64,000 nucleotides of DNA from Pseudonocardia kunmingensis (GTDB lineage: Bacteria > Actinomycetota > Actinomycetes > Mycobacteriales > Pseudonocardiaceae). The DNA lies in the NCBI RefSeq assembly GCF_006716445.1, contig NZ_VFPA01000001.1, forward strand, positions 124,001 to 188,000, read 5' to 3'. This document shows positions 3,729-37,737 of this stretch, in pieces; within the stretch, counting starts at the first letter, position 1, and every line of letters begins with the position of its first letter. The position numbers and the translations under genes are program-made. The notes beneath the pieces were generated by a model. That model ran no database searches, was not told the DNA's origin, and saw only the letters and a program-made list of their open reading frames with translations.

Positions 3729-3778
3729 GCGAGCTCCTTCAGCGTGTGTCGGACGGCCATTGCCGGGCGCCCGGAAGT

Positions 3779-4762: not shown

Positions 4763-4831
4763 TTACAGCACCTCCGCGCCTTGTCGGACAGCATCGACCT
4801 TAGACAAGAACTCCGGTCAGACCACAACTTT

Positions 4832-6629: not shown

Positions 6630-6705
6630 CGCTCGTCTCCTCGTTCCTCGTCGCCCGACCCTACGTTTCGGGAGTCAGGCCCTCACAGGTCACAGGCAAC
6701 ACGGG

Positions 6706-11262: not shown

Positions 11263-11295
11263 TCGTTCTCGCTCCTCGGGATCGTCGAGATGAGT

Positions 11296-21742: not shown

Positions 21743-22435
21743 CTACCGCGTCGCCTGGGTCGGCTCGTTCTCCGTGAAGTGCCGCAGCGCGAGCGCGCGG
21801 GAGTCGCCCACGTGCTCGCGCATGAGCTGCTCGGCGCGCTCCGCGTCGTGGTCGCGCAGCGCCATGATGATCGCCTCGTGCTGGGCGTTGGCTCGGCGGA
21901 GCTGATCCGGCGGGTAGGGGTATCGGGAGCGGTAGGTGGCGGTGAAGGCGTGCACCTGGCCGAGGATCGTGCGCAGCAGCTGACTGCCCGCCGCGTCCGC
22001 GATCAGACCGTGCAGCTTCAGGTCCGCCTCGGCCTGCTCCTGCGGGGTGGCGTGGTCGTTGAGGCGCTCGATCCGGCCGTGCGCCTCGTCGAGCGCGGCC
22101 AGTTCCCGCTCGGTGATCCGGCCCGCGGCCAGTGCGGCGGCATGCGACTCGAGCAGCGTGCGGACGGAGTAGATCTCGGAGATGTCGGTGGCCGTGATGG
22201 TGCGTACCGTTGCCCCCCGGTTCGGCGTCATCCCGACGAGACCCTCTCCCTGCAGGATGAACAGGGCCTCGCGGATCGGGGTGCGGCTGATCCCGAGCTC
22301 TTCGGCGAGCGCCCGCTCCCGGAGGGGCTGTCCCGGCTGAAGCCGGCCGTCGAGGATCGCTCTGCGGACGATGCGGGCGACGCCCTCGCTGCTGCGCTGG
22401 GACATGGGCAGGCCGTCATCGGTCAGAAGATCCAT
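21743..22435 (-). CDS. GntR-family regulator, FCD (FadR) subgroup
   Basis: The 230-residue protein has a winged helix (RRAILDGRLQPGQPLRERALAEELGISRTPIREAL) and a C-terminal all-helical FCD ligand domain (IYSVRTLLESHAAALAA, DLKLHGLIADAAGSQLL, NAQHEAIIMALRDHDAERA). The ATG at 22435 is preceded at about 10 bases by GGAGA; a second ATG at 22405 is possible. It is divergent from the pyridine-type catabolic operon, and a near-perfect palindrome of the FCD-operator type lies between them. It most likely represses that operon and responds to a pathway carboxylate or hydroxypyridine. Confidence 0.9.
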   Translation of the reverse strand: MDLLTDDGLPMSQRSSEGVARIVRRAILDGRLQPGQPLRERALAEELGISRTPIREALFILQGEGLVGMTPNRGATVRTITATDISEIYSVRTLLESHAAALAAGRITERELAALDEAHGRIERLNDHATPQEQAEADLKLHGLIADAAGSQLLRTILGQVHAFTATYRSRYPYPPDQLRRANAQHEAIIMALRDHDAERAEQLMREHVGDSRALALRHFTENEPTQATR

Positions 22436-22752
22436 TGCGTGGCCGTCTCCAGAGTCCGCCCCCACGAGGCATCTGCGTGCCCCTCCGCCGACGATCGTAG
22501 ACGCCCGGGTCGTCCGGGCCGGTGGACGCAGCAGGCGGCCCGGCCCGGGAACGACGGGCAGGCCCGGTACTTCGTCACGAGTGTTACGAGCTCGTTGATT
22601 CGAGACGAAGGTCTTGCCCGATCGGCGGTCCACCCGTCATGGTGGAGCCACCCCAAGCCGGGAAGCCGCGAACGAGTACGGCCCCAGATGGTATACAAGT
22701 ATGCCATTCGTCTCGCTCGGGCCCGGCACCAACGACGCAGGGGAGGACCAAC
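22436..22752. promoter_or_regulatory. Divergent control region between the GntR regulator and the hydroxypyridine operon
   Basis: These 317 bp hold no convincing gene. They should carry the promoters for both directions. Besides the operator near 22700 there is a short CGAGCTCG palindrome near 22590. Confidence 0.6.
22688..22707. promoter_or_regulatory. Predicted GntR/FCD operator
   Basis: ATGGTATAC and GTATGCCAT flank a central AA, forming a 20-bp palindrome with one mismatched pair and the GTATAC core frequent in FadR/VanR-type operators. It ends 45 bp before the GTG of the first catabolic gene, a position suited to repression of that promoter. Confidence 0.65.
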
Positions 22753-23445
22753 GTGGATCGGCCTTCGACGGCCCACGTCTACGAGCGGGCCGGGTTCGGC
22801 AGACCGGTGGTGCGCGGCGCGCGGCCTGCCGTTGTGGTCGTGGACTTCACCTACGGCTTCACCGATCCGCAGTACCCGACGGCAGCCGACATGACGGCTC
22901 CCGTGCTGGCGACCGCGCGCCTGCTCGACGCGGCCCGGGCCGCAGGCGCCCCGGTCGTCTTCACCACGATCTCCTACGACGCTGCGCAGGTCGCCGCGCT
23001 CGCCTGGCTGCGCAAGGCCCCGGGCATGGCAGCGCTGCAGGTCGGGAGCCGACTGGTCGAGATCGACCAGCGATTGTCGCCGCGACCGGACGAGCACCTG
23101 CTCACCAAGACCGGGGCATCCGCCTTCTTCGGCACCGCGCTGGCGGGCCACCTCGCCTCGGTGGGGGCCGATACCGTGATCGTGACCGGCGCGACCACGA
23201 GCGGGTGCGTCCGCGCGACCGCCGTGGATGCCGTGCAGCACGGCTACCCGGTCCTGGTCCCGAATGTCTGCGTCGGTGACCGGGCGCGGGCCCCGCACGA
23301 CGCGAGCCTGTTCGACATCAACGAGAAGTACGGCGACGTCGTCGGCCTCGACGACGTCCTCGCCTACCTCGAAGCCCTGCGGCCGGATCCCCCCGAACCG
23401 GAGCAGCTGTCCACCACCACGTCCCAGGCGGAGGCGCGCGCATGA
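22753..23445 (+). CDS. nicF: Isochorismatase-family amidohydrolase, probable maleamate amidohydrolase (NicF-like)
   Basis: The 230-residue protein is a cysteine hydrolase with the family triad Asp31 (VVVVDFTYGF), Lys119 (LTKTGASAF) and Cys152 (TTSGCVRAT). Members include nicotinamidase, N-carbamoylsarcosine amidase and maleamate amidohydrolase. The last releases ammonia and maleate in pyridine-ring breakdown. The operon also encodes NicX-, NicD- and NicE-type enzymes, which makes the maleamate assignment the most economical one. The GTG at 22753 follows GGGGAGG; a longer upstream frame is open but lacks a better start. It is the first gene of the operon and overlaps the next by 4 bp. Confidence 0.78.
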   Translation: MDRPSTAHVYERAGFGRPVVRGARPAVVVVDFTYGFTDPQYPTAADMTAPVLATARLLDAARAAGAPVVFTTISYDAAQVAALAWLRKAPGMAALQVGSRLVEIDQRLSPRPDEHLLTKTGASAFFGTALAGHLASVGADTVIVTGATTSGCVRATAVDAVQHGYPVLVPNVCVGDRARAPHDASLFDINEKYGDVVGLDDVLAYLEALRPDPPEPEQLSTTTSQAEARA

Positions 23446-25346
23446 CGTCCACCAGTCCCACCCCGACCGACGCCCCACCCGTGCCGGCGGGAGCGGCGGA
23501 CGCGCCCGCTCAGGCAGTGCCGGGGAAGCGCTTCGCCAGCCCGTTCGCGGTGCAGACGCCGCCAGGTGCGGAGGGCTGGCACAGCATGTACCCGTACTAC
23601 GCGCTGCTGTGCGACGAGCGCCGCGAGTTCGACGACGGCAAGTTCTGGTTCTTCGACGGGATGCACAACCCCGAGCCGCTCTACCCGTTCGACACGATCA
23701 TGACCGAGAACTGGTGGGTCGCGGTCAGCCAGATGTCGACCCGGGTGTGGCCGATCCCGCTGGCCGGCGGCATCGACCACCGGATCATCAACGGGTACCT
23801 CTACATCAGCCCCAACGCGGTCACCGACGCCGACGAGATCGCCCAGCGGGCCCAGGAGTTCACCGTCCGCGCCGGGCACTACTACGAGAACTGGGACGAG
23901 ATCTACGAGCAGTGGGTCGCCAAGGCGACCGACTGCATCGAACGGCTCAAGGCCATCCGGTTCGCGCCCCTGCCCGGCATGGAGCCGGCGGACCGCGTCT
24001 TCGAGCACCGCGGCCTCTACTCCAGCTACGACCTGCTGAAGAGCTACGGCGAGCTGATCACGAACCTGTTCGAGATGGGTTCGTACCACTTCGAGATGCT
24101 CAACCTCGGCTACGGCGCCTACCTCACGTTCCGCGAGTTCTGCCAGACCGCGTTCCCGGGCATCACCGACCAGACGATCGCCAGCATGGTCTCGGGCATC
24201 GACATCATGCTCTTCCGTCCCGACGACGAGGTCCGTGCGCTGGCGGAGCTCGCCGTCGAGCTCGAACTGACCGACGTGCTGCTGACCGAGGAGGACCCGA
24301 GCTCCGCGCTCGCCGCGCTCGCCGCGCTCCCGGGAGGCGCGCGGTGGCTGGAGTCCTTCGAACAGGCCAAGGACCCGTGGTTCTGGTTCTCGACCGGGGC
24401 GGGCTACCAGCACAGCGACCGCGCCTGGATCGACGACCTGCGTCTCCCGTTCACCGCGCTGCGCGGCTACATCACGAGGCTGCTCGCCGGCGAGGACATC
24501 CGCCGGCCCCTCGAGGAGATCCTGGCCGAGCGCGTGCGGGTGACCGACGAGTACCGCAGCTACCTGCCCACCGACGCCGACCGCGAGTCCTTCGACGGGC
24601 TGGTCGCGCTCGCCCGGCAGGTCTTCCCGTTCGTGGAGAACCACAACTTCTACGTCGAGCACTGGCACCACTCGATGTTCTTCTCGAAGGTGCGCGAGCT
24701 CGGCGAAGTCTTCGTCGCCCATGGGTTCTTCGACGACCGCGAGGACATCTTCTACCTGCACCGCAACGAGATCTACTCGGCGCTCTACGACCTCAACATC
24801 GGCTGGGCCACCGGCACGGAGGCCCGCGGGGTCACCTACTGGCGGCCCGAGATCGAGCGCCGGCGCCGCATCCGGGAGGTGCTCAAGGCCCACCCGCCGC
24901 AACCTGCGCTGGGCGTCCCGCCGGACTACATCACCGAGCCGCTGACGGTGATGCTCTGGGGCATCACCCAGGAGTCGGTGCAGGAGTGGCTCGGCAGCGA
25001 GGGCCGCGACGGCGGTGAGCTGCGTGGGGTCGCGGCCTCGGCCGGCAGGGCGACCGGCCGGGCGCGGGTGATCGTCGACCCCGAGCAGCTGCACGAGGTG
25101 CAGGACGGCGACATCCTCGTCTGCCGGATCACCGCTCCCAGCTGGGCGCCGGTGTTCTCCCGGCTGTCGGCGGCGGTGTCCGACGTCGGCGGGATCATGG
25201 CCCACACCGCGATCGTCTGTCGTGAGTACGGCCTGCCGGCAGTCGTCGGCACCGGCTTCGCCACCACATCCCTGCGCACCGGCCAGCTCATCGAGGTCGA
25301 CGGCAACACCGGCGTCGTCCACGTCGTGGAGGACGTGCCCGCATGA
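23442..25346 (+). CDS. PEP-utilising enzyme with mobile phosphohistidine domain (phenylphosphate synthase subunit A-like)
   Basis: The 634-residue protein resembles the about 70-kDa subunit of phenylphosphate synthase. It has a long N-terminal region (EGWHSMYPYYALL, WFFDGMHNPEPLYPFDT, GGIDHRIINGYLYISP) and a C-terminal PEP-synthase-type swivelling domain (ISAPSW-like ITAPSWAPVFS, then GGIMAHTAIVCREYGLPAVVG). The histidine near residue 588 is the expected carrier of the phosphoryl group. In the known enzyme this subunit transfers beta-phosphate of ATP to phenol. A homologous PEP-utilising protein was reported as needed for 3-hydroxypyridine dehydrogenase activity in Ensifer adhaerens HP1. Here the likely acceptor is the ring hydroxyl of a hydroxypyridine (inference). 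It overlaps both neighbours by 4 bp. Confidence 0.85.
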   Translation: MTSTSPTPTDAPPVPAGAADAPAQAVPGKRFASPFAVQTPPGAEGWHSMYPYYALLCDERREFDDGKFWFFDGMHNPEPLYPFDTIMTENWWVAVSQMSTRVWPIPLAGGIDHRIINGYLYISPNAVTDADEIAQRAQEFTVRAGHYYENWDEIYEQWVAKATDCIERLKAIRFAPLPGMEPADRVFEHRGLYSSYDLLKSYGELITNLFEMGSYHFEMLNLGYGAYLTFREFCQTAFPGITDQTIASMVSGIDIMLFRPDDEVRALAELAVELELTDVLLTEEDPSSALAALAALPGGARWLESFEQAKDPWFWFSTGAGYQHSDRAWIDDLRLPFTALRGYITRLLAGEDIRRPLEEILAERVRVTDEYRSYLPTDADRESFDGLVALARQVFPFVENHNFYVEHWHHSMFFSKVRELGEVFVAHGFFDDREDIFYLHRNEIYSALYDLNIGWATGTEARGVTYWRPEIERRRRIREVLKAHPPQPALGVPPDYITEPLTVMLWGITQESVQEWLGSEGRDGGELRGVAASAGRATGRARVIVDPEQLHEVQDGDILVCRITAPSWAPVFSRLSAAVSDVGGIMAHTAIVCREYGLPAVVGTGFATTSLRTGQLIEVDGNTGVVHVVEDVPA

Positions 25347-26449
25347 CATCCACCGCCTCTGTCCACCCGTTCGTGCTCTGGATCGACGACTCGACTGCTG
25401 TGGGCAACCGGCTGCTGGGTGGCAAGTTCGCGAGCCTCGCGGAGATGACCGCGAACGGCTTCGCCGTGCCCCCCGGTTTCGGGATCACCACCACCGCCTA
25501 CCGGCACTTCCTGGACTCCGCGGGGCTCGCGCAGCGCGCCCGCCAGGTCCGGGCCGAGGCCCGTGGGGCCGACCTCCCACGGGTGCAGGAGCTCAGCGCG
25601 GAGTTCGCCGCCGCGATCGAGGCGGCGCCGATGCCGGCCGACCTCGAGACCGCGATCCGCGAGTCCTACGCCGAGCTGGAGCGGCGGACCGGGAGCACCG
25701 GCCTGCCCGTGGCCGTGCGCTCCAGCGGGGAGTCCGAGGACCTGGCGGGGGCCAGCTTCGCCGGGCAGTACGACACGTTCCTGTGGATCCGGACCGGAGA
25801 CGGCGTGCTCGCCCACGCGCGGCGCTGCTGGGCCGGGATGTTCGGGCCTGCTGTCCTCACCTACCGCCCCGACACCGAACGGGACGCGGCTGCCGGCGAC
25901 CACGCCATCTGCGTCGGTGTGCAGCAGATGGTGCAAGCACGGGCGGCCGGTGTCATGTTCACCCTCGACCCCGTCACCGGCGACCGCTCCAAGGTCGTCA
26001 TCGAGGGCTGCTGGGGCCTCGGGGAAGGCGTCGTCAGCGGCGGGATCACGCCGAGCCGCTACGTCGTGGACAAGGTGACCTTCGAGGTCGTCGCCCAGGA
26101 GGTGCAGCGACAGGAGACCCAGTACGGCTTCGACCCCGACACCGGCAGCGTCGGCCTCGTGCCGGTCGATGCCGAGGTGTCCGGCTCGCCCTGCCTCGAG
26201 GCCGCACAGATCGACACGCTTGCGCGGCTGGCGAAGGAGATCGAGCGGCACCGCGGCGCCCCCCAGGACATCGAATGGGCCGTCAGCCAGACGGGCGAGG
26301 TGCACGTCCTGCAGGTTCGCCCGGAAACCGTCTGGAGCCGACGCCAGGCCGAGCAGCTCGTCACCGAACGCAAGTCCGCGGTCGGTCACGTCCTGGCCCG
26401 CTTCGCCGGCGTCGGCGTGACGCATGGCGGCGGGGGCCGCACGTCGTGA
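25343..26449 (+). CDS. PEP/pyruvate-binding ATP-domain protein (phenylphosphate synthase subunit B-like)
   Basis: The 368-residue product is a free-standing PEP synthase/PPDK N-terminal nucleotide domain. GGKFASLAEMTANGFAVPPGFGI, AVRSSGESEDLAGASFAGQYDT and QQMVQARAAGVMFTLDP are the standard signatures, and DIEWAV..VHVLQVRPETV ends the domain. In phenylphosphate synthase this about 40-kDa subunit uses ATP to pyrophosphorylate and thereby phosphorylate the histidine of the large subunit. The gene order and 4-bp overlap with the large-subunit gene support a two-part kinase. The third, CBS-domain subunit of the phenol enzyme is not present in this operon. Confidence 0.87.
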   Translation: MTSTASVHPFVLWIDDSTAVGNRLLGGKFASLAEMTANGFAVPPGFGITTTAYRHFLDSAGLAQRARQVRAEARGADLPRVQELSAEFAAAIEAAPMPADLETAIRESYAELERRTGSTGLPVAVRSSGESEDLAGASFAGQYDTFLWIRTGDGVLAHARRCWAGMFGPAVLTYRPDTERDAAAGDHAICVGVQQMVQARAAGVMFTLDPVTGDRSKVVIEGCWGLGEGVVSGGITPSRYVVDKVTFEVVAQEVQRQETQYGFDPDTGSVGLVPVDAEVSGSPCLEAAQIDTLARLAKEIERHRGAPQDIEWAVSQTGEVHVLQVRPETVWSRRQAEQLVTERKSAVGHVLARFAGVGVTHGGGGRTS

Positions 26450-27309
26450 AGCCCGCCCCGTTCGCCTACCACCGTCCGACCTCGGTCGCCGAAGCGGTTG
26501 CCCGCCTGGCCGAGTACGACGGGGCGGCCCGCGTGCTCGCCGGAGGCCAGAGCCTCGTGCCGATGCTGAACATGCGGCTGTGGCGGCCCGCGGCACTCGT
26601 CGACATCAACGAGCTCGACGAACTCGACGACGTCCGGCTCGACGGGCACCGGATCACCCTGGGCGCCCTGGTCCGCTACGCCGCCCTGGAGCGCTCGCCT
26701 CTCGTGGCCGAGCGGCTCCCGCTGCTCGCGCGGATGGTGGGGCACATCGGCGACCGGCAGGTGCGCAACCGCGGCACCGTCGGTGGTGCACTGGCCCAGG
26801 CCGACCCCACCGGGGAGCTGGCCCTGGCGTGCCTCGTGATGGGCGCGGTCGTGACCGCCACCGGGCCGGGCGGGACGCGGCGGATCCCCCTGTCCGAGCT
26901 GTACGCCGGCTCCTACGCGAGCACGCTGGAGCCCGACGAACTGCTCACCGCGGTGGAGATACCGCCACAGTCGCGCCACGTCGCCTTCCGCGAGGTCTGC
27001 CGCAAGCACAACGACTTCGCCGTGCTCAGCGTGGCCACCACCGGCGACCGGGATGCCGACGGCCGGTGGCACGACGTCCGCATCGGCCTCGGCGGGGTCG
27101 CGGACACCCCAGTCCTCGCCGGAGCGGCCGCCGCCGCCGTCACCGGCACGGCCCTCGACGACGCCGACCTCGAGGCCGCCGCGGCCGCCGCACTCGAGGT
27201 CGTCGACCCGCCCACCGACGTGCGCGCCTCGGCCGAATACCGCCGGCATCTGGTCCCCGTCCACGTCCGCCGGGCGCTCGCCGAGCTGCGCGCGGCGCCG
27301 TCCCGGTGA
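26446..27309 (+). CDS. Molybdenum hydroxylase, FAD subunit (CoxM-like)
   Basis: The 287-residue protein is the medium subunit of a xanthine-oxidase-family hydroxylase. LAGGQSLVPMLNMRL near residue 30 and RGTVGGALAQADPTGELAL near residue 105 are the FAD-binding signatures. It carries electrons from the 2Fe-2S subunit to an acceptor. The GTG at 26446 overlaps the previous stop (GTGA). Unlike most such operons, the three hydroxylase subunit genes are not adjacent: the SRPBCC, HD, NicD- and NicX-type genes sit between this gene and the other two. Confidence 0.92.
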   Translation: MKPAPFAYHRPTSVAEAVARLAEYDGAARVLAGGQSLVPMLNMRLWRPAALVDINELDELDDVRLDGHRITLGALVRYAALERSPLVAERLPLLARMVGHIGDRQVRNRGTVGGALAQADPTGELALACLVMGAVVTATGPGGTRRIPLSELYAGSYASTLEPDELLTAVEIPPQSRHVAFREVCRKHNDFAVLSVATTGDRDADGRWHDVRIGLGGVADTPVLAGAAAAAVTGTALDDADLEAAAAAALEVVDPPTDVRASAEYRRHLVPVHVRRALAELRAAPSR

Positions 27310-27355
27310 CCCCGTCCACCACCCGCCGACCCGCCCCGAGCGGAGGAGAGGTTCC

Positions 27356-28039
27356 ATGAAGCTGCGCGAGACGTTCGAGGTCGACCAACCGGTCGCCACG
27401 GTCTGGAGGTTCTTCGAGCAGCCCGAGTCCGTGGCCGGGTGCATGCCCGGGGTCGAACAGCTCACCGCGGTCAGCTCGGACGACATCGAGGTCCGGGTGA
27501 CCCAGAGCGTCGGGCCGATGCGCGCGACCTTCGCGGCGACGATCAAGATCGTCGAACGGGTTCCCGAGAAGCTGATCTCCTTCACCGCCACCGGCAAGAG
27601 CGTCGGCGGGGCCGTGGGCAACGTGCGCGCCACCGCGAACGTCCAGCTCGAGCCGGCCGCTCGGGGCACCCTCGTGCTGGTCGACGGGGACGTCGCGCTG
27701 GCGGGCGCGCTGGGCAGCGTGGGCCAGAAGGTCGTCGCCAAGCAGGTCGGCAAGGTCACGACCCAGTTCGCCCGCAATCTGGAAGTTGCCCTCGGGGGCG
27801 GCCCCGCAGCGGCGCCCTCGGAGCCGCGGACACCCGGCACGCTCGCGCCCTCGGGGTCGCCGTACCCGGAGTCCGTGAGCGGGACCGCCGGACGCCTCGG
27901 CATGCCCCCGCCGGAGGGACGGCCGGGCGGTGATCCCTGGGCCAAGGTGGCGGCGGCCCTCAGCGCGGTGTCGGTGGTGCTGGCCGTCGTGGCCCTGCGG
28001 CGCGGATCTCGGCCCGGAACGCGGCGAGGGCGGCGGTGA
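27356..28039 (+). CDS. SRPBCC-domain (CoxG-like) subunit with C-terminal membrane anchor
   Basis: The 227-residue protein starts with a CoxG/SRPBCC domain (ETFEVDQPVATVWRFFEQPESVAGCMPGVE) of about 145 residues. A proline/glycine-rich linker follows, then a C-terminal helix KVAAALSAVSVVLAVVAL and a basic tail, which predicts membrane attachment as in CO-dehydrogenase CoxG. GGAGG precedes the ATG by seven bases; this is the only clear non-overlapping start in the first half of the operon. A separate SRPBCC subunit was described as the fourth component of 3-hydroxypyridine dehydrogenase in Ensifer. The anchor suggests that the hydroxylase docks at the membrane. Confidence 0.87.
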   Translation: MKLRETFEVDQPVATVWRFFEQPESVAGCMPGVEQLTAVSSDDIEVRVTQSVGPMRATFAATIKIVERVPEKLISFTATGKSVGGAVGNVRATANVQLEPAARGTLVLVDGDVALAGALGSVGQKVVAKQVGKVTTQFARNLEVALGGGPAAAPSEPRTPGTLAPSGSPYPESVSGTAGRLGMPPPEGRPGGDPWAKVAAALSAVSVVLAVVALRRGSRPGTRRGRR

Positions 28040-28695
28040 CCCCGGTGCCCAGCCCCGCAACGAGTCCGGTCACCAACCCCACGGGCCTGCCCTGGACGGC
28101 ACCGCAGGTGCCGGTCGACACCGAGATCGAGGCGCTGGCCGCCGATTGGGTACGGGCTTACGACCAGGTCGAACACCTGATGCGGGCACGGGACTGGCTC
28201 GTACATCTCGACCCGGCCGCGACCGTGGAGATGCGGCTCGCGGCGATGACCCACGACATCGAGCGGATGTTCCCCGGCGGCCCGAGGCTCGACCACGCCA
28301 CGACGGAGTGGGACGACCCCTTCTACCTCTACCCGCACTCGCTGCGCTCCGCCGAGGCGGTCGGCGTGTGGTTGGGCGGGCTCGGCCGGGCCGCGTCCGG
28401 CGTCCGGCTGAGCGAGGTCCGCCGGCTGATCGGGCTGCACGAGGTGGGCGGGCTGCAGGGGGCGGACGCGGTGCAGGCGGGCGACTCGCTGTCGTTCCTC
28501 GAGACCCTCGCCGGGCTGACCCGCGACTGGGTGCTCTCCGGGGCCTGCCCACGGGACAAGGCGATCGCAAAGCTGCGCTACATGGCCGAGCGGGTGCATC
28601 TGCCGCAGGCCACCGAGCTCGCCGCTCCCCTGCTGGAGTGGGCGATCGACCAGTTGCCCGCGCAGGGCGCGGGATCGGAAGGGAGCCGGCGATGA
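28036..28695 (+). CDS. HD-domain protein, candidate phosphohydrolase of the pathway
   Basis: The 219-residue protein has metal-ligand residues in the HD-superfamily order: His47, the doublet His73-Asp74 in AAMTHDIERMF, His101, His135 in LIGLHEVGG and Asp150 in QAGDSLSF. Most HD proteins are metal-dependent phosphohydrolases, and a few with extra histidines are di-iron oxygenases. I do not recognise a closer family. It is translationally coupled on both sides (GTGA and ATGA) between the SRPBCC subunit and the NicD-type hydrolase, so a role in this pathway is very likely. Removing phosphate from a phosphorylated hydroxypyridine intermediate is the simplest proposal, but it is inference. Confidence 0.65.
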   Translation: MTPVPSPATSPVTNPTGLPWTAPQVPVDTEIEALAADWVRAYDQVEHLMRARDWLVHLDPAATVEMRLAAMTHDIERMFPGGPRLDHATTEWDDPFYLYPHSLRSAEAVGVWLGGLGRAASGVRLSEVRRLIGLHEVGGLQGADAVQAGDSLSFLETLAGLTRDWVLSGACPRDKAIAKLRYMAERVHLPQATELAAPLLEWAIDQLPAQGAGSEGSRR

Positions 28696-29531
28696 GCGGT
28701 GTCACGATCCGGGGCCGCAGCGCGGTGGTCGAGGCCAACGGGCTGCGGCACCGCGTGCTGCGGTACGGCGAGCCCGGGGCGCGCGATCTGCTCGTGCTGC
28801 CGGGGATCACCAGCCCGGCCGTCACCGCCGACTTCCTGGCGGTCCGGTTCGCCGAGCTGGGCTACCGGGTGACCGTGCCCGACATCCGCGGGCGCGGCGA
28901 GAGCGACCGCGCCTCCGCCGGCGCGTACCGGATGCAGGACTACGCCGCCGACGTCGCCGGTCTGGTCGATGCGCTCGACCTGCGCGAGCCGGTGATCGTC
29001 GGACACTCCATGGGTGCGCGGATCGCCGCCGCCTACGCCGCACGGCACGCCCCCGACCGGCACGGGCTTCTCGTCCTGGTCGACCCCCCGGTCTCCGGTC
29101 CCGGCCGCGGCCCCTACCCCACCTCTCGCGAGGCGTTCCTGCAGCAGTTGCACGAGGCACAGCGGGGCACCACCGCCGACGAGGTTCGCCGCTACTACCC
29201 GCTGTGGCCCGAGCGGGAGCTGCAGCTGCGGGCCCAGGCGCTCGCTTCCTGCGACGAGACGGCCGTCTGCGAGACCCACACCGGTTTCGAGACCGAGGAC
29301 TTCTTCGATCACTGGGCGGCTGTGACCCCACCCGCGGTGCTGGTCCGCGGCGCCGACAGCCCGGTCGTGCCCCCGACGGCCACCGACGACCTTCGCCGCG
29401 CCCGCCCGGACATCGAGATCCACAGCGTCCCGGGCGCCGGACACATGGTGCCGTGGGACAACCTGTCCGGCTTCCTCGACACCGTCCGTCCGCTCCTGCT
29501 CACTCACGTCCACGACACCTCACCTGCCTGA
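28692..29531 (+). CDS. nicD: Alpha/beta hydrolase, probable N-formylmaleamate deformylase (NicD-like)
   Basis: The 279-residue alpha/beta hydrolase has the nucleophile elbow GHSMG with Ser106, an acid Asp222 in RGADSPVV and His251 in GAGHMVPWD. The cap region contains GPGRGPYPTSREAFL, similar to NicD of Pseudomonas putida. NicD hydrolyses N-formylmaleamate to formate and maleamate after ring opening of 2,5-dihydroxypyridine. The next gene encodes a NicX-type ring-opening dioxygenase, which supports this assignment over a generic esterase. Confidence 0.8.
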   Translation: MSGVTIRGRSAVVEANGLRHRVLRYGEPGARDLLVLPGITSPAVTADFLAVRFAELGYRVTVPDIRGRGESDRASAGAYRMQDYAADVAGLVDALDLREPVIVGHSMGARIAAAYAARHAPDRHGLLVLVDPPVSGPGRGPYPTSREAFLQQLHEAQRGTTADEVRRYYPLWPERELQLRAQALASCDETAVCETHTGFETEDFFDHWAAVTPPAVLVRGADSPVVPPTATDDLRRARPDIEIHSVPGAGHMVPWDNLSGFLDTVRPLLLTHVHDTSPA

Positions 29532-29544
29532 TCGGAGTGATCTG

Positions 29545-30576
29545 ATGGATCAGAACCTGTTCAACGAGATCTGCCTGCAGCAGCTCACCCTCTCCGGTGT
29601 GCACGAGGGCGAGACCGTGGCCGTGCTGACCCGCGGCGCCGACCGCGCCGAGTACGCCGACGCCTTCCTCTGGGCCGTGCAGAAACTCGGCGCCCAGGGC
29701 TTCCACCTGCGCCTGCCCTCCCCCGCCTCCGCGTCCGGCGCCTGGGCGGTCGGCGACTCCGGGCTGGCCGACAACCGGCTGGCGGTGGAGGCGCTCAAGT
29801 CCGTGGACATGGTCGTGGACTGCACGTTCCTGCTGTTCAGCCCCGAGCAGTTCGAGATCCAGGCCGCCGGCACCCGCATCCTCACCGCGGTCGAACCCGC
29901 CCCGCTACTGGCCCGGCTCATGCCCACGAAGGAACTGCGCGAACGCGTCGAGATCGGCGCCGAGCTGCTGGCCAAGGCCCAGACCATGCGGATCACCAGC
30001 CCGCACGGCACCGACGTCACCTACCGCCTCGGCGTCTACCCGACCATGAGCGAGTACGGCTACACCGACCAACCCGGACGCTGGGACCACTGGCCCGCAG
30101 CCTTCGTGTTCACCGGCGGCGCCGACGACGGCGTCGACGGGAAGATCGTCCTCGCCCCCGGCGACGTACTCCTGCCGTTCAACACCTACGTGCAGACCCC
30201 GGTGGAACTCACCATCGAGCAGGGTTTCATCCGCGACATCCGCGGAGGCCTCGACGCCGACCTGCTGTCCTCCTACATCCGCTCCTTCGACGACCCCCGC
30301 GGCTACGGCATGAGCCACGTCGGCTGGGGCCTGGACGAACGCGCGCACTGGCACGGGCTGACCCAGTTCGGCGGCGGCATGGGGATGGAACTGCGCAGCT
30401 TCTACGGCAACGTCATGTTCTCCATCGGCCCCAACAACGAGCTCGGCGGGCCGAACGACACCCCGTGCCACTTCGACATCCCCATGCGCGGCAACTCCCT
30501 CTACCTCGACGACGAGCTCATCGTCGACAACGGCGAGCTGACCGTGCCCGAGATGCGCCCGGCGGCCCGCCGATGA
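29545..30576 (+). CDS. nicX: 2,5-dihydroxypyridine 5,6-dioxygenase (NicX-like)
   Basis: The 343-residue protein belongs to the M29-like leucyl aminopeptidase fold family that includes NicX. The three iron ligands of P. putida NicX are matched here by His258 (MSHVGWG), His309 and Asp311 (CHFDIPM), with nearly the same spacing. NicX opens the ring of 2,5-dihydroxypyridine to N-formylmaleamate using Fe2+ and O2. The ATG follows CGGAGTG and its stop overlaps the 2Fe-2S subunit gene. A metallopeptidase function is unlikely given the adjacent NicD, NicF and NicE types. Confidence 0.87.
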   Translation: MDQNLFNEICLQQLTLSGVHEGETVAVLTRGADRAEYADAFLWAVQKLGAQGFHLRLPSPASASGAWAVGDSGLADNRLAVEALKSVDMVVDCTFLLFSPEQFEIQAAGTRILTAVEPAPLLARLMPTKELRERVEIGAELLAKAQTMRITSPHGTDVTYRLGVYPTMSEYGYTDQPGRWDHWPAAFVFTGGADDGVDGKIVLAPGDVLLPFNTYVQTPVELTIEQGFIRDIRGGLDADLLSSYIRSFDDPRGYGMSHVGWGLDERAHWHGLTQFGGGMGMELRSFYGNVMFSIGPNNELGGPNDTPCHFDIPMRGNSLYLDDELIVDNGELTVPEMRPAARR

Positions 30577-31127
30577 CCGGCGCCGTCGTGGGGCGGGCGG
30601 AGCCGCTCGTCGAACTGGTCACCACCGTCAACGGTCAGCAGGTGAGCGAAAGCGTGCCGCCGCGGCTGCACGTCGCCGACTTCCTGCGCCAACGGCTGGG
30701 GCTCACGGGCACCCACGTCGGCTGCGAGCAGGGTGCCTGCGGCATGTGCACGGTGGTGGTCGACGGCGAGGCGATCAAGTCCTGCCTGATGCTGGCCTGT
30801 CAGCTCGACGGCCGGAACGTGCAGACGGTCGAGTCGCTCGCCGAGGACGACCGGCTCAACCCGCTGCAGCAGGCCTTCAGCCAGGAACACGCACTGCAGT
30901 GCGGGTTCTGCTCACCCGGGTTCCTCATGACCGCGACGGCGCTGGCGTACCAGGGCGGGCACCCGACGCGGGAGGAGATCCGCGAGGAGATCGCCGGGGT
31001 CCTCTGCCGGTGCACCGGCTACGCCACCATCGTCTCGGCCATCGAGCGCTACTTCGCCGGATCCTCCCGGCCCGACCCGGACGACGACGCCGCCGACGTG
31101 ACCGAGGGGACGCGAGGCCGACGATGA
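30573..31127 (+). CDS. Molybdenum hydroxylase, 2Fe-2S subunit (CoxS-like)
   Basis: The 184-residue small subunit has both clusters of the family: plant-type CEQGACGMC with a distal cysteine in SCLM, then CGFC and CRCTG in the C-terminal helical domain. It relays electrons from the Mo site to FAD. The first about 12 residues extend beyond the common start. ATGA overlap with the dioxygenase gene and with the large subunit gene places it firmly in the operon. Confidence 0.94.
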   Translation: MTGAVVGRAEPLVELVTTVNGQQVSESVPPRLHVADFLRQRLGLTGTHVGCEQGACGMCTVVVDGEAIKSCLMLACQLDGRNVQTVESLAEDDRLNPLQQAFSQEHALQCGFCSPGFLMTATALAYQGGHPTREEIREEIAGVLCRCTGYATIVSAIERYFAGSSRPDPDDDAADVTEGTRGRR

Positions 31128-33568
31128 CCATCCTGGACCGCCCCGCCCCGGCCGGGACCGAGCGGCGGACCGGCGTGATCGGCACCTCCGTCCTCCGGAA
31201 GGAGGACGAGCGCCTGCTGCGCGGCGACGGCCGGTTCACCGCCGACGTCGAGCCGGCGCACGTGCTGCACATGGCCGTCTCCCGCTGCCCCTACCCGCAC
31301 GCGCGAGTGCTGCGGGTGGACGCGGATGCGGCGCGGCGGCTGGACGGGGTTCTGCACGTCCTCGTCGGCGCGGACGTCCGAGCCGCCACCGAGCCGATGA
31401 CGGTGCTCCGGCCGGTGCCGGGCGCGCCGCAGCTGCCCTACTACGCGCTGGCCCAGGGCATCGCGACGCACGAGGGCCAACCGGTGGTGAGCGTGGTGGC
31501 GACCAGCCGGCACGTGGCCGAGGACGCCCTCGAACTGGTCGACATCGAGTACGAGCCGCTGCCGCACGTCGTCGACGTGCTCGCCGCGCTCGAGCCGGAC
31601 GCCCCGGTGCTGCACCCCTCTGTGCTCGACTCGAACCTGCTGGCCGCGAACTCCGACGGCAGCGGGGATCCCGAGGCGCGGATGCGTGAGGCCGCCGTCG
31701 TCGTCGAGGGCCGGTTCCGGATCAACCGGGTGACCGCCCTGCCCATGGAGACCCGGGCCGTCCTGGCCCAGTGGCGGCCCGGCGCTCGCGAGCTGACGGT
31801 GCACTGCTCGACGCAGGTGCCGCACCTGGTCCGCAAGCAGCTCGCGGAGTCGCTGCGCCTGGCCGAGGGCGACATCCGGACGATCGCCTCCGACGTCGGT
31901 GGCGGCTTCGGCCTCAAGCTCGGCGTCTTCCCGGAGGACGTGCTCGCATGCCTGCACGCGATGGCGCTGCGCCGTCCGGTCAAGTGGGTGGAGGACCGCG
32001 CCGAACACTTCCGGGCATCCACCCACGCCCGCGAGTCGGTGCACGACTACCGCATCGCAGCCGACGCCGAGGGGCGCATCCTGGCGATGACCAACGTCTA
32101 CGCCACCGACATCGGCGGCTGGAACTCGCCGTTCGGGTCCGCGCAACTGTCGAGCGTGGTGTTCAACGGCCCGTACCGGGTGGAGGACGGCTACGCCGAG
32201 CGCCGGGTCACCCTCACCAACAAGACGCCGATCGGCGCCTACCGCGGCTACGGCCAGCCCGAGGTCAACTTCGCCTACGAGCGGCTGATGGACCAGCTCG
32301 CCCGCCGGCTGGACCTCGACCCGGTGGAGCTGCGGGCCAAGAACATGCTGACGCCGCAGGAGCTGCCCTGGAAGAACCCGACCGGCGCCGTGTACGACAG
32401 CGGGGACTACGAGCGCTGCCTGCGGATGGCTGCCGAGGCGATCGGATGGTCCGAGCACCGGGCCGCCGCCCCGGCGCCGCGGGCGGACGGCCGGCTCGTC
32501 GGGATCGGGTTCTCCTCCTTCGTCGAGCGCACCGGCTACGCCAGCGCCCGCTTCCTGGCCCGGCGCGGGTCGCAGTTCGGGGCGCACGAGAGCGTTACGC
32601 TGCGCGCCAACCGGTCCGGCGGGATCGACGTCTACACCGGCGTCTCCACCATGGGGCAGAGCAGCGAGACGGCCTTCGCCCAGGTGGTCAGCGACGTGTT
32701 CGGCATCGACTACGCCGCGGTGAAGGTGCACGCCGGGGATACCGGCGCCTCCCCGCTGAACACCGGCGCCTTCGCCTCTCGCACCATGATCGCGGCGGGT
32801 GGGGCGCTCAAGCAGGCCGCGGAGGTGCTGGCGGGCAAGATACTCCGGCTGGCCGCCTGGCGGCTGGAGGTCGAGGCCGCCGATCTGGAGATCGCCGGGT
32901 CGCTCGTGCGGCACCGCGAGAACCCGGACGTGCAAGTGTCGCTCGCGGAGGTGTTCGGGGTCGCCATCACCGGCCAGGGCATCCCGCCGGACGAGGAGCC
33001 GGGCCTGGAGTCCACCACCCACTTCGAGCCCTCCGACGCCGCCTACTCCTACGGCACCGCTGCGGCGCGCGTGTCGGTGGACCCGCATACCGGGGAGTTC
33101 GACGTCGAGCGGTTCGTGCTGGTGCACGACGCCGGCACCGTGGTGAACCCGCAGGTCGTCGAGGGCCAGGTGCGCGGCGCCCTCGCGCAGGGCTTCGGTG
33201 CGGCGCTCACCGAGGAGCTGAGCTACGACCCGGACACCGGCCAACTGCTCAACGGATCGATGGTCGACTACTTCCCGCCGACCGCGGCCGACCTGCCCCC
33301 GATCGAGCTCCTGCACACCGAGGTGCCCTCCCCCGTCACCCCGTTCGGGATCCGCGGGGTCGGAGAAGCAGGCACCATCCCGCCCGGTGCCGCGGTCGCG
33401 AACGCCGTCTGCGACGCGCTCGCCGACTTCGGCGTGGAACTCGACAGCCTGCCCGTCACCCCCGAGGTCATCTGGCGGGCTCTGTCCCACCGGGCGGCTC
33501 CCGAGGGACCCGACGACCACCTCGCGCCCACTCCGGGCGATCTCCCCGACGGAGGACCTGGATACTGA
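31124..33568 (+). CDS. Molybdenum hydroxylase, Mo-cofactor subunit (probable hydroxypyridine hydroxylase)
   Basis: The 814-residue large subunit has the standard order: N-terminal ald_Xan_dh domain (GTSVLRKEDERLLRGDGRF), DVGGGFGLK for molybdopterin binding, GAYRGYGQPE at the active-site loop, GVSTMGQSSET, and GVGEAGTIPPGAAV whose glutamate is the catalytic base. The CO-dehydrogenase loop AYRCSFR is absent, so it is not a CODH. By context it should add a hydroxyl from water next to the ring nitrogen of a hydroxypyridine, giving 2,5-dihydroxypyridine for NicX. No XdhC/CoxDEF-type maturation gene is in the operon. Confidence 0.87.
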   Translation: MTILDRPAPAGTERRTGVIGTSVLRKEDERLLRGDGRFTADVEPAHVLHMAVSRCPYPHARVLRVDADAARRLDGVLHVLVGADVRAATEPMTVLRPVPGAPQLPYYALAQGIATHEGQPVVSVVATSRHVAEDALELVDIEYEPLPHVVDVLAALEPDAPVLHPSVLDSNLLAANSDGSGDPEARMREAAVVVEGRFRINRVTALPMETRAVLAQWRPGARELTVHCSTQVPHLVRKQLAESLRLAEGDIRTIASDVGGGFGLKLGVFPEDVLACLHAMALRRPVKWVEDRAEHFRASTHARESVHDYRIAADAEGRILAMTNVYATDIGGWNSPFGSAQLSSVVFNGPYRVEDGYAERRVTLTNKTPIGAYRGYGQPEVNFAYERLMDQLARRLDLDPVELRAKNMLTPQELPWKNPTGAVYDSGDYERCLRMAAEAIGWSEHRAAAPAPRADGRLVGIGFSSFVERTGYASARFLARRGSQFGAHESVTLRANRSGGIDVYTGVSTMGQSSETAFAQVVSDVFGIDYAAVKVHAGDTGASPLNTGAFASRTMIAAGGALKQAAEVLAGKILRLAAWRLEVEAADLEIAGSLVRHRENPDVQVSLAEVFGVAITGQGIPPDEEPGLESTTHFEPSDAAYSYGTAAARVSVDPHTGEFDVERFVLVHDAGTVVNPQVVEGQVRGALAQGFGAALTEELSYDPDTGQLLNGSMVDYFPPTAADLPPIELLHTEVPSPVTPFGIRGVGEAGTIPPGAAVANAVCDALADFGVELDSLPVTPEVIWRALSHRAAPEGPDDHLAPTPGDLPDGGPGY

Positions 33569-34392
33569 TGACCGAGCACCGCACCCCCGAACCGGGACCC
33601 GATCTGGCAACGGAGGCCGTGGCCTGCGAGGACCAGCCCGCACCCGAGGGTCTCGACTCGTCGCGGATCGGCCTGATCGTGCCGAGTTCGAACACGACGA
33701 TGGAGACCGAGCTTCCCGAGCTCTTCCGCCGGCAGAGCGAGGCCACCGGGCACCGGTACACCTTCCACTCCGCCCGCTCGGCCATGAAGCAGGTGAACCG
33801 GGAAGAGCTGCTGGTCATGGTCGACAAGGCGGCCGATTGCGCGACAGCGGTATCGGACGCCGACGTCGACGTCATCGCCTACGCCTGCCTCGTCGCGGTC
33901 ATGGCGCAGGGACCCGGCGCGCACGAGAAGTCCGAGCAGGTGATCGCGGACGCCGCGCGCGCCAACGGGCACCCGGCCGACGTGGTCAGCAGCGCCGGCG
34001 CTTTGGTGCGCACGCTGCGGATGATCGGCGCCGACCGCGTCGCGATGGTGACCCCGTACATGGCGCCCCTCACCCGCATGGTCGGCGAGTACATCGAGGC
34101 CGAGGGCATCGAAGTGCTCGACGCGGTGGCCCTCGAGGTGCCCGACAACCTGACCGTCGGCCGGCTGGACCCCGCGCGGCTGCCGGAGATCGCCCGCGGT
34201 CTGCGCCGGGAGGGAGCGCAGGCCGTCGTCCTGTCGGCCTGCGTCCAGATGCCGTCGCTGCCCGCGGTGCAGCAGGTCGAGGACGAGCTGGGGCTGCCCG
34301 TCGTGACGGCCGCGACGGCAACGGCGTTCGAGGTGCTCACCGCGCTTGGCCATCGGCCTGCCATCACCGGAGCAGGTCGCCTGATGAGCTGA
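33568..34392 (+). CDS. nicE: Maleate cis-trans isomerase (NicE-like, Asp/Glu racemase superfamily)
   Basis: The 274-residue protein has an N-terminal extension of about 30 residues and then LIVPSSNTTMETE, typical of maleate isomerase and arylmalonate decarboxylase relatives. Two cysteines, Cys107 (AYACLVA) and Cys225 (LSACVQMP), are 118 residues apart, the same spacing as the catalytic pair of known maleate isomerases. The enzyme turns maleate into fumarate. Its start shares one base with the large-subunit stop. It is the last gene of the operon. Confidence 0.85.
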   Translation: MTEHRTPEPGPDLATEAVACEDQPAPEGLDSSRIGLIVPSSNTTMETELPELFRRQSEATGHRYTFHSARSAMKQVNREELLVMVDKAADCATAVSDADVDVIAYACLVAVMAQGPGAHEKSEQVIADAARANGHPADVVSSAGALVRTLRMIGADRVAMVTPYMAPLTRMVGEYIEAEGIEVLDAVALEVPDNLTVGRLDPARLPEIARGLRREGAQAVVLSACVQMPSLPAVQQVEDELGLPVVTAATATAFEVLTALGHRPAITGAGRLMS

Positions 34393-34543: not shown

Positions 34544-35812
34544 GTGCGTTGACCACATACGTTCGCCGGGTTTGATCATGCGGCGGCGTGGGGCCGTCCC
34601 CAGCGCTGTTGGCGTTCGCTGCGTACCCGGGCGCGTTCGCGGCGTTGGGCCGCGAGGACGTCGGGGTGGCGGGCGTTGGCGTTGCGCCAACGCAGGTAGG
34701 CGTGCAGCTCGCGGGCCAGGACGGTGTGGTTGGGATGGTTCGAGGCGCCCATGACGAAGGTCCGCAGCGGCCCGAACTGGGCCTCCATCGGGTTGGCCCA
34801 AGAGGCGTAGGTCGGGGTGAAACACAGCTCGACCTTGTTGCGGGCCGCCCACACCCGAACCGCGGGAGTCTTGCTCGCCGACAAGTTGTCCATGATCACG
34901 TAGATCGGAGCGCCGTCGGGTCGAGCAGCCCGAATGGACTTCAGGGCGGCGAGGGTGTGGTCGCCGCCCTTGCGGCGCCGCAACATGCCCCACAGTTGGT
35001 CATCGCCGAGGCTGTAGCAGCCGTGGACGTAGCGGATGCCGTGCCTGCGGGTGTAGGTCGCCGGCAGCCGAGTTGGCTTCGACTCCGGCGCCCAGGTACT
35101 GCCGTGACACGGGCGGATGGACAGCGGCCCGAACTGGTCGAACGCGAAACAGCGGTCGAGATATCGGCTGGTCACTTCATCGATCCGGTCCAGCTTGGCG
35201 TCCTTGTCCGGGTCGCGCGACTCCTTCCAGGTCCGGGTTCGCTGAAACGACACCCCGCGCTCGCGCAGCAGTTGGCGCAGCCGCTCACGACCGATCCGCA
35301 CCGGCCGGGCTGGGTGCTCGGCCAGATACGCGGCGAGCTTGCGCACGCTCCAGCGGGTGAACGGGCGCCCGAGCTTGCGCGGGCGGGTGGTGGCCGTCGC
35401 GATGATGAACGCGATGTCCTCATCGCTGATCAGGCGGGGACGGCCTCCCGCCCACTGAGGGTCCAGCGCGGCCAACCCCCGCTGGTTGAACGCGTGGATC
35501 ACGTCCCGCACGGTGTCCTCATCCGCGGCGACCAGGCGGGCGATCGCGGGGACCGGGGTGCCCGACGACGACGCCATGATGATCATTGCGCGGCGGCCTC
35601 GGATCGAGCCGTGTTCGCCCCGGCGCACGATCTGGGTCAACCGCTGGCCCTCCTCATCGGTGAGCCTGCGCGCTCTGACTGGTTCTGCCATCAGACCCTC
35701 AGCCCCCGATCCCGACCCTGACGCCAGGACCGAGAGTGGGATCACCACGACTCCACGCCCGGGACGCTGCCCGGCGTGTCGCCAACCCGGTGAACGTTCG
35801 TGGTCAACGCAC
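34544..35812 (-). mobile_element. Complete IS630-family insertion sequence
   Basis: The element is 1269 bp and is flanked by a duplicated TA (34542-34543 and 35813-35814), the IS630 target rule. Terminal inverted repeats of about 29 bp start with GTGCGTTGACCAC at both ends and differ at three positions. It carries one transposase gene on the minus strand. It lies about 150 bp after the last gene of the hydroxypyridine operon and does not break a recognisable gene. Confidence 0.9.
34576..35691 (-). CDS. IS630-family transposase
   Basis: The 371-residue transposase has an N-terminal helix-turn-helix pair (LTDEEGQRLTQIV, VPAIARLVAADEDTVRDVI), a winged-helix segment and a DDE catalytic core. The candidate acidic residues are in FAFDQFGP, VIMDNLSA and NPMEAQFG. 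The ATG at 35691 follows GAGGG and the alternative start at 35748 would lie near the IS end. The frame is full-length and probably active. Confidence 0.92.
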   Translation of the reverse strand: MAEPVRARRLTDEEGQRLTQIVRRGEHGSIRGRRAMIIMASSSGTPVPAIARLVAADEDTVRDVIHAFNQRGLAALDPQWAGGRPRLISDEDIAFIIATATTRPRKLGRPFTRWSVRKLAAYLAEHPARPVRIGRERLRQLLRERGVSFQRTRTWKESRDPDKDAKLDRIDEVTSRYLDRCFAFDQFGPLSIRPCHGSTWAPESKPTRLPATYTRRHGIRYVHGCYSLGDDQLWGMLRRRKGGDHTLAALKSIRAARPDGAPIYVIMDNLSASKTPAVRVWAARNKVELCFTPTYASWANPMEAQFGPLRTFVMGASNHPNHTVLARELHAYLRWRNANARHPDVLAAQRRERARVRSERQQRWGRPHAAA

Positions 35813-35814
35813 TA

Positions 35815-36154
35815 GGGGCGCACCAGTTGCGGCCGGGTGCGAGCAGCCGCGGATCTGCGGTCGGTCGACGGCGACGTCGAAGGGTCATGGATGCGTCCGG
35901 CTGGTTGGCCAGACCGCATTCACGACGGCTCACCGAGATCGAACAGATCAGTAGACAGGGCGTCAGAGAAGAACGGTATCGCGGCGCCCCTCGACGAGAT
36001 GACCGGCCAACTCCACCTCTCAAGATCGGCGAGGTTCGACGATGCCACGCGCTACCGACCGGTCAGCCGCTGCGCTGCCTGGTCGAGGCGCCGTCATCGC
36101 TTCAACACTCACCATGGAGGCCGCGGGCGCGGTCAGCACGTCGCGGATCTTAGC
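35815..36154. other. Gene-free stretch between two insertion sequences
   Basis: About 340 bp separate the IS630 and IS701-like elements. GC content is somewhat lower than in the flanks and no frame resembles a known protein. It is probably older intergenic or mobile-element debris. Confidence 0.4.
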
Positions 36155-36179
36155 CTAGTACTACAGCCGTAGATCGTGA

Positions 36180-37502: not shown

Positions 37503-37528
37503 AACTGATGATCATCACGCGGTGGCCG
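37472..37528. repeat. 15-bp perfect inverted repeat at the IS701 transposase start
   Basis: CGGCCACCGCGTGAT at 37472-37486 is repeated in inverted form at 37514-37528 with a 27-bp spacer that contains the transposase GTG start (37502). A third, partial copy (GCGGCCACCGC) follows at 37542-37552. The hairpin could hide the start codon in mRNA and limit transposase synthesis, or be part of the transposase binding site. Confidence 0.65.
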
Positions 37529-37693
37529 TCCAGGTTCCCGGGCGGCCACCGCCAAGATCACGAAGTCGTAGGGTCGGGGACTGGCGCGGTGGCGTTTGTC
37601 CGACGGTAGGTCTTGGCGCTTCCACCGAGAGTTTCCTCGCGGTAGCTTTCGCTGTAACCTTGGTCGACGCTCCGTTTCCAGTCCCCGCCCGTC

Positions 37694-37726
37694 AAACCGT
37701 GCATGCGGTTCTCCCGCACACGGCTT
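37694..37726 (-). ncRNA. Group II intron domain V
   Basis: Read on the minus strand this segment begins AAGCCGTGTGCGGGAG and ends CCGCATGCACGGTTT, so AGCCGTG pairs with CACGGTT and GCGG with CCGC around a GAGAA loop. This is the 34-nt hairpin with AGC near the base that marks domain V, the catalytic centre of group II introns. It lies 11 bp downstream of the reverse transcriptase stop. Confidence 0.8.
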
Positions 37727-37737
37727 ACCGACGTTCT

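Follow-up and report, generated by a model that had tools for sequence, protein, structure and literature searches.

A putative phosphorylate-oxidise-dephosphorylate route for 3-hydroxypyridine in an eleven-gene operon of Pseudonocardia kunmingensis

What would a pair of proteins resembling phosphoenolpyruvate (PEP) synthase do in the oxidation of a hydroxypyridine? The question is raised by the operon at positions 22753-34392 of a 64,000-nt window of the Pseudonocardia kunmingensis contig NZ_VFPA01000001.1 (the window being the whole stretch analysed, whose numbering is used throughout). Ensifer adhaerens HP1 is reported to convert 3-hydroxypyridine to 2,5-dihydroxypyridine with a four-component molybdenum (Mo) hydroxylase, HpdA, encoded in its 3hpd cluster (work attributed to Wang et al. 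2020), and to need PEP-utilising and PPDK-like proteins for HpdA activity. Both this cluster type and the requirement for the kinase-like proteins have reportedly been published for Ensifer, for which a phosphorylation cycle is not known to have been put forward. At 22753-34392, eleven open reading frames lie on the + strand, all free of internal stops; with the chosen starts, eight of the ten gene junctions overlap by 1-4 bases, and at the other two the genes are 46 and 13 bases apart. The eleven-gene operon described in an earlier note on this DNA is therefore real, and its gene labels are backed by Pfam and NCBIfam matches together with sequence matches to the Protein Data Bank (PDB). That note accounted for ten of the genes and left out the product of 28036-28695, which is predicted to be an HD-superfamily metal hydrolase. 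What our analysis adds is this HD hydrolase as a constant third element beside the kinase pair and the Mo hydroxylase, the shared distribution of the three, and a second Mo-hydroxylase lineage in clusters with kinase and HD genes; together they make phosphate-primed Mo hydroxylation a concrete, testable proposal.

Our analysis suggests that the operon probably degrades 3-hydroxypyridine through a phosphorylate-oxidise-dephosphorylate cycle joined to a NicX-type lower pathway. The large and the ATP-grasp components of the dikinase (hereafter KA and KB) would move the beta-phosphate of ATP via His588 of KA onto the ring hydroxyl, giving 3-pyridyl phosphate, AMP and inorganic phosphate. The Mo hydroxylase, with a CoxG-like protein as its anchor, would then act on this phosphate ester and hydroxylate it at C6, adjacent to the ring nitrogen. 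The HD hydrolase would strip the phosphate to give 2,5-dihydroxypyridine, and NicX, NicD, NicF and NicE would convert this to fumarate, formate and ammonia. We infer these upper-pathway reactions, their order and their substrate from what was observed: the genes, the families they belong to, their co-occurrence and the intactness of the catalytic residues. With a lower pathway of the NicX type, a Mo hydroxylase that attacks carbons next to a ring nitrogen and a hydroxyl required for phosphorylation, the simplest candidate substrate is 3-hydroxypyridine. An HD phosphatase closing the cycle would also explain why 3-hydroxypyridine oxidation needs a kinase. Phosphorylation of the ring hydroxyl ahead of the Mo hydroxylase had already been suggested in the earlier note; it is partly supported and is the best-supported reading, strengthened by the HD hydrolase, by the co-occurrence and by the second Mo-hydroxylase lineage in kinase and HD clusters.

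The two-part kinase-like enzyme had been correctly recognised: KA (23442..25346, 634 aa; HpeH/CreH/PpsA-like) is a PEP-utilizers protein matching PF00391 and NF006153, and KB (25343..26449, 368 aa; HpeI/CreI/PpsB-like) is a PPDK_N protein (PF01326, E 7.9e-93). They have the architecture of a dikinase of the ~70 and ~40 kDa type, made of a swivel and an ATP-grasp protein. KA holds the substrate-binding and swivel domains, and its phospho-accepting His588 lies in the swivel motif GGIMAHTAIV, the histidine being kept in 28 of 28 hpd-type KA rows (hpd-type denotes loci labelled by neighbouring genes like those of the window operon, and group labels in all trees are our own). In the PDB sequence comparison, KB matches the ATP-grasp chains of PEP synthase and rifampin phosphotransferase. 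The structure model of KA is of low confidence (pLDDT 63), and its six top Foldseek matches are rifampin phosphotransferases (E 3.9e-14 to 2e-11, 487-578 alignment columns); PPDK rows mostly cover about 115-125 columns, with 1kbl and 1vbh reaching about 450 at a root-mean-square deviation (rmsd) of 24-26. The model thus points to a substrate domain like that of rifampin phosphotransferase and not to the C-terminal domain of PEP synthase, in agreement with what is said of HpeH in PMC12167813. According to the same source, the studied two-component small-molecule dikinases phosphorylate aryl hydroxyls: HpeHI, CreHI and PpsAB act on phenolic hydroxyls, and HpeHI yields AMP and needs the conserved His. 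In size, domains and catalytic His, window KA and KB match a dikinase of the PpsAB/CreHI/HpeHI kind, with putative phosphorylation of an aryl hydroxyl. In the KA tree, the hpd group together with L049 has an SH-aLRT value of 85, below the 95 mark, and its 22-row core one of 99; two placements depart from our labels, L201 (labelled hpe) falling with cre and L049 (labelled far) with hpd.

The HD protein (28036..28695, 219 aa) carries the metal ligands H47, H73-D74, H101, H135 and D150. In 45 aligned sequences, window included, H73, D74, H101, H135 and D150 are invariant and H47 is kept in at least 90%. An AlphaFold model built from 42 sequences has a mean pLDDT of 91, and its best VIA-align matches are 2pq7 (Z 13.6, rmsd 4.2 over 158 residues) and YpgQ (Z 12.8), with alarmone hydrolases at Z of about 10-11, values below about 13 being possibly due to chance for helical models. 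Among its relatives compared with Pfam, L064 scores 20.8 bits to HD, just under the cut-off of 22, and L078 scores 35.7 bits to DUF4202, passing the cut-off of 35.1, with L013 at 33.2. Ligands and predicted fold together assign the protein to the HD-superfamily metal hydrolases, and a phosphatase is the activity that we propose. A profile comparison of the window HD family with the HD proteins of Cre-type clusters gave a probability of 68% and E 4.8e-5 with the ligands aligned.

The Mo hydroxylase is, as previously described, encoded in four separate proteins: the FAD subunit (26446..27309; PF00941, PF03450), a separate SRPBCC/CoxG-like protein (27356..28039; PF06240), the [2Fe-2S] subunit (30573..31127; PF01799, PF00111) and the Mo-binding large subunit of the xanthine-oxidase family (31124..33568; PF02738, PF20256, PF01315). 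The CoxG-like protein has a C-terminal hydrophobic helix, the hydrophobic stretch beginning at residue 196, and a C-terminal stretch is present in 29 of 37 relatives; it is likely a membrane anchor of the hydroxylase. The nearest solved chain to the large subunit is quinoline 2-oxidoreductase (1t3q, E 4.3e-152). We considered CO dehydrogenase (CoxL), whose active-site Cys loop reads AYRCSFR, and rejected it, the window subunit reading GAYRGYGQPE at this place. A search of the large subunit for a possible phosphate site found 21 positions that are K, R or H in more than 90% of hpd rows and in less than 35% of unlinked rows. Among them, R469 is R or K in 30 of 30 hpd rows and in about one of 28 unlinked rows, and its loop presumably aligns with the pocket of xanthine dehydrogenase. 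The basic loop of the Thermomicrobia-type Mo enzymes is also found in L110, a relative classed as unlinked. The genome as a whole has 19 matches to the Mo subunit, two to KA (E<=1e-60) and two to HD, and all the KA and HD matches lie in its two hpd-type clusters.

The lower pathway from 2,5-dihydroxypyridine to fumarate is fixed by matches to solved enzymes, which confirm the four Nic-type labels given earlier: 4l07 (E 1.6e-72; 3ot4/3uao at E 3.9e-38) for the NicF-type maleamate amidohydrolase of the isochorismatase family (22753..23445; PF00857), the deformylase 4l0c (E 4.3e-52) for the NicD-type N-formylmaleamate deformylase, an alpha/beta hydrolase (28692..29531), 7cn3 (E 1.9e-89) for the NicX-type 2,5-dihydroxypyridine 5,6-dioxygenase (29545..30576) and 4fq7 (E 1e-64) for the NicE-type maleate cis-trans isomerase (33568..34392). 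PMC7910607 names H265, S302, H318 and D320 as the four Fe ligands of NicX, and all of them are kept in the window protein, along with E177 and H189 (NicX numbering). The position of NicX His105 is taken by a natural Phe98, Phe being found there in 22 of 25 aligned NicX rows. Since the H105F variant stays active (PMC7910607, where H105A is inactive), Phe98 does not exclude NicX function.

The distribution of these genes agrees with a joint function. Searches of the 62 genomes of the genus placed the Mo subunit and the KA of hpd type (both at E<=1e-220) and HD (E<=1e-20) each in 11, the same 11 in every case; for some genomes these searches scored only a fraction of the initial candidates (e.g. 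16 of 40). An HD-led scan of the genome collection with two short peptide patterns gave at least 79 loci and is thus a sample; KA or KB was present in 59 of the 79 loci listed and a same-strand Mo large subunit in 41. Among those listed, 36 are well flanked (at least 8 kb on both sides), and these include a kinase component in 32 cases, kinase plus same-strand Mo in 29 and neither in 4; in some loci (e.g. L075, L077, L087) the kinase is found without a same-strand Mo gene. The tallies rest on hidden Markov models that were themselves derived from these loci. From the kinase side, the HD gene is present in each of the eight clusters with a KA sharing 57% identity or more with that of the window, namely the window operon itself, the genome's second copy, G397, G587, G1212, G1109, G1068 and G654 (which holds L064); the KA-led and HD-led sets overlap, some of these clusters being the same contigs. 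The full set of eleven gene types is also present in Geodermatophilus, Blastococcus, Modestobacter, Pseudonocardia, Amycolatopsis, Prauserella, Mycobacterium, Thermocatellispora, Planosporangium and Paraburkholderia tagetis. The gene order of the window is found in eight of the 20 listed loci (plus L045, cut at a contig end) and in seven others NicE alone is placed differently, a sharing which indicates that the composition of the operon is not due to chance. That hydroxylase genes are interleaved with those of the lower pathway, as pointed out in the earlier note, was confirmed and is not peculiar to this strain, as it occurs in 18 of the 20 listed loci (exceptions L019 and L051). For two loci that at first seemed to have no Mo enzyme (G054, L069), we considered that kinase and HD serve NicX on their own and rejected this: in G054 the Mo gene is on another contig, and the L069 cluster runs beyond the first flank.

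Phylogeny of the Mo subunits separates the enzymes that accompany the kinase. The tree is midpoint-rooted, from a quick search, and holds 69 of 72 rows (two hpd and one unlinked row were excluded for length), its two linkC rows being one gene. The hpd subunits form one clade of 28 rows with an SH-aLRT value of 100, which includes the window subunit. Kinase- and HD-linked subunits of Thermomicrobia and Thermoleophilia stand well apart from this clade, with unlinked subunits between, and a subunit of Thermomicrobium roseum that is linked to the kinase without HD occupies a third place. In L013, a plasmid cluster of T. roseum, genes for a cyclase and a fumarylacetoacetate hydrolase accompany those for KB, HD, FAD, KA, Mo and 2Fe-2S proteins, and no gene is annotated as NicX. 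Separate Mo lineages in kinase clusters suggest that the cassette is modular, within the limits set by the quick search, the midpoint rooting and the long branches of some rows. A general mode of catalysis is possible, if somewhat short of probable, in which the dikinase would phosphorylate a hydroxy-(hetero)aromatic, the Mo hydroxylase would take only the phosphate ester and the HD hydrolase would release the product, different Mo lineages having been recruited at least twice for different downstream pathways (actinobacterial/proteobacterial hpd; Thermomicrobia).

Several observations weigh against the proposed cycle or its extension. Long branches lead to some of the linked rows of the Mo tree, and reading it as two origins assumes no wide loss. 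Within the Mo subunit, the 457-497 segment that holds R469 is not the most charge-shifted one, and a kinase-linked T. roseum subunit (L018) has no R469. The co-occurrence within one genus partly reflects a single linked operon. Regarding the HD protein, even its best structural matches (Z 13.6; Foldseek E 0.06) are modest ones for a helical model, no Pfam match was found for it at E<=0.01, and its pairwise BLAST comparison with Cre-type HD proteins is not significant (E about 1). Its relatives are without a kinase in the stretch examined in 20 of the 79 listed loci, several of them on short contigs, and the four well-flanked kinase-free loci belong to Thermogemmatispora (three) and Bryobacterales (one). 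Furthermore, oxygenases and nucleotide hydrolases are also known among proteins of the HD fold. The HD protein could then act as an oxygenase of the HD type or in nucleotide house-cleaning as a hydrolase, with a general phosphatase removing the phosphate. This would be allowed by the range of the fold, which includes oxygenases and nucleotide pyrophosphatases, by the presence of YpgQ among the best structural matches and by the kinase-free relatives in Acidobacteria and Thermogemmatispora. We consider this quite unlikely, given the linkage of HD to split dikinases both in the loci and in the genus genomes and the HD protein at the creD 'phosphohydrolase' position of collinear Cre-type clusters; in addition, no oxygenase of the PhnZ/MIOX type is named among the 50 structural matches listed, an absence that excludes nothing.

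Two other explanations concern the kinase. It could serve, with the HD protein, the maturation or regulation of the Mo hydroxylase (e.g. through protein or cofactor phosphorylation) and not act on the substrate, which would suit the reported need of Ensifer HpdA for kinase-like proteins, a need that in itself says nothing on how they act. This is very unlikely, because the other Mo subunits of the genome are without a KA of this type, the likeness of the low-confidence KA model to rifampin phosphotransferase extends past the swivel domain, and small aryl alcohols are the substrates of the closest kinases that have been studied (PMC12167813). The kinase could also mainly trap 3-hydroxypyridine in the cell, the Mo hydroxylase needing no phosphate and the HD protein releasing the compound when needed. 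In this regard, the authors of the HpeHI study find the reason for the initial phosphorylation unclear and suggest scavenging by trapping (PMC12167813). However, release before hydroxylation would be futile cycling, each turn of which uses up two phosphate bonds, HpeCBA does not accept substrates without the phosphate (PMC9618137), and of the 19 Mo-subunit matches of the genome only those of the hpd-type clusters are accompanied by the two KA and two HD matches, which makes trapping alone unlikely. Phosphorylation of the substrate followed by Mo-dependent oxidation and HD-dependent release thus stays our preferred reading.

The kinase is found in other settings as its sequence diverges. Among KAs at most 51% identical to that of the window, one adjoins the ppc carboxylase (L198), another a P450 and two HD proteins (L199), and others a biotin carboxylase with a HAD protein (L164, and by eye L165, L203 and L206); L160, L163, L201, L202 and L204 are not surely placed by setting. 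Rieske, extradiol-dioxygenase-like and HAD proteins accompany KA in L154 and, by eye, in L155, L157, the first KA of L158, L159 and L200, the assignments being checked with Pfam in L154 and partly in L158; these loci possibly represent another phosphate-primed phenol pathway. A split-dikinase component also lies beside microcompartment shell genes (BMC and EutN/CcmL domains) in L158 (11184-15706, the second KA) and L156 (7014-10907), the former having LigB-type dioxygenase and HAD genes as well, and these are possibly microcompartments for phosphorylated aromatics. In L202 (9895-12495) a HAD hydrolase domain is fused N-terminally to a KA-type protein next to KB and polyketide-biosynthesis-like genes (by eye), a fusion that fits the pairing of kinase and phosphatase. 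Two KA genes with a single KB were seen in L057, G397 (L150) and G587 (L152), the KA genes being near each other in L057 and G587. In L050 an HD relative stands beside P450-like and LigAB-type dioxygenase-like genes (by eye), and no kinase was found in its 12-kb contig. A search with KA in 397 genomes of the order of G654 gave matches in three, G654 itself (hpd type), G757 and G947 (cre type), G757 having one match of pps/ppc type and a weak second at 29% identity. On plasmids, a tblastn search of PLSDB with KA gave ten records covering at least 80% of the query; the six regions examined, from five of these records (H1-H4, H6 and H7, H1 being a second region of the H3 record), comprise two cre, one hpe, one pps and two Thermomicrobium clusters, none with an annotated NicX.

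Outside the window, the same genome contains a second, diverged copy of the operon (L019, G000:C1:62001-82000, at 2593-13674) with KB, FAD, 2Fe-2S, Mo, SRPBCC, HD, KA, flavin-reductase-like, AllG-like and NicX-like genes. Its NicX-like protein has Gln in place of Glu177, and this copy probably serves another hydroxypyridine. Elsewhere in this genome, about 10 kb from two other Mo-hydroxylase loci, an open frame of 1106 aa encodes a PPDK_N protein in a single chain (G000:C1:2539780-2540643). Around the window operon, a divergent GntR/FCD-family regulator gene adjoins it (21743..22633, - strand; PF00392, PF07729), and GntR-like regulators were also seen by eye beside other copies (L020 and L051). 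In 17 loci (L024, L025, L041 and L051 among them) the hpd operon is preceded by a divergent gene for an Amt-family transporter, which is present in 15 of the 20 hpd loci whose upstream flank is 2.5 kb or longer; it is absent from the window, where a search for it gave chance-level matches only, and from the near-identical relative L022. Downstream, transposase-like genes (34579-35748 and 36774-37502) and part of a group II intron reverse transcriptase/maturase gene (37741-38490) occupy 34579-38490, suggesting that the operon borders mobile DNA.

If the proposed cycle is correct, the open puzzle of the PEP-synthase-like pair in 3-hydroxypyridine oxidation becomes a three-enzyme question with named proteins, and phosphate priming of aromatics would extend from P450, biotin carboxylase and UbiD-type chemistry to Mo hydroxylases and N-heterocycles. 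In addition, split dikinase, Mo hydroxylase and HD protein form a gene signature for finding such pathways across several phyla. In titles and abstract openings we found neither a phosphorylated hydroxypyridine intermediate nor an HD protein in this pathway, a scope that leaves out most subscription journals, and we make no claim that they are unpublished.

Lastly, the operon can be set beside known systems. With the 3hpd cluster, as reported for Ensifer, it would share separate FAD, 2Fe-2S, Mo and SRPBCC proteins and the kinase-like pair, while its gene order is different according to the earlier note. The nic/maleamate pathway of Pseudomonas has all four lower-pathway enzyme types and the NicX iron ligands in common with it, and differs in the starting substrate of its upper pathway and in having His105 where the window has Phe. 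The Ensifer 3hpd work (AEM 86:e01313-20) is cited in PMC11962113. The Cre pathway for 4-cresol (CreHI, the P450 system CreJEF and CreD) also combines a dikinase, an oxidising enzyme and an HD-family hydrolase, although there a P450 oxidises the side chain of a phenol whereas the Mo enzyme of the window would hydroxylate a pyridine ring. The table of PMC7764795 lists the gene order creC-creJ, with creD as 'phosphohydrolase', and Rhodococcus plasmids have P450, KB, KA, SDR, ferredoxin, reductase, HD and ALDH genes in the reverse of this order; the window KA is about 49-50% identical to two Rhodococcus KAs, and the HD proteins are distantly related. In the Hpe pathway for acetovanillone (HpeHI, HpeCBA, HpeD), HpeCBA acts only on phosphorylated substrates and HpeD removes the phosphate (PMC9618137). 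This pathway resembles the window operon in the kinase type and in a dedicated phosphatase, which is proposed for the window, the requirement for a phosphorylated substrate being a property of Hpe; it uses a biotin-dependent carboxylase and a NagD-like phosphatase in place of a Mo hydroxylase and an HD protein. The PpsAB/phenylphosphate carboxylase system likewise has a two-component kinase, and such a kinase adjoins ppc genes in L015, but it serves anaerobic carboxylation, and the L015 KA is about 46% identical to the window KA and falls in a separate clade.

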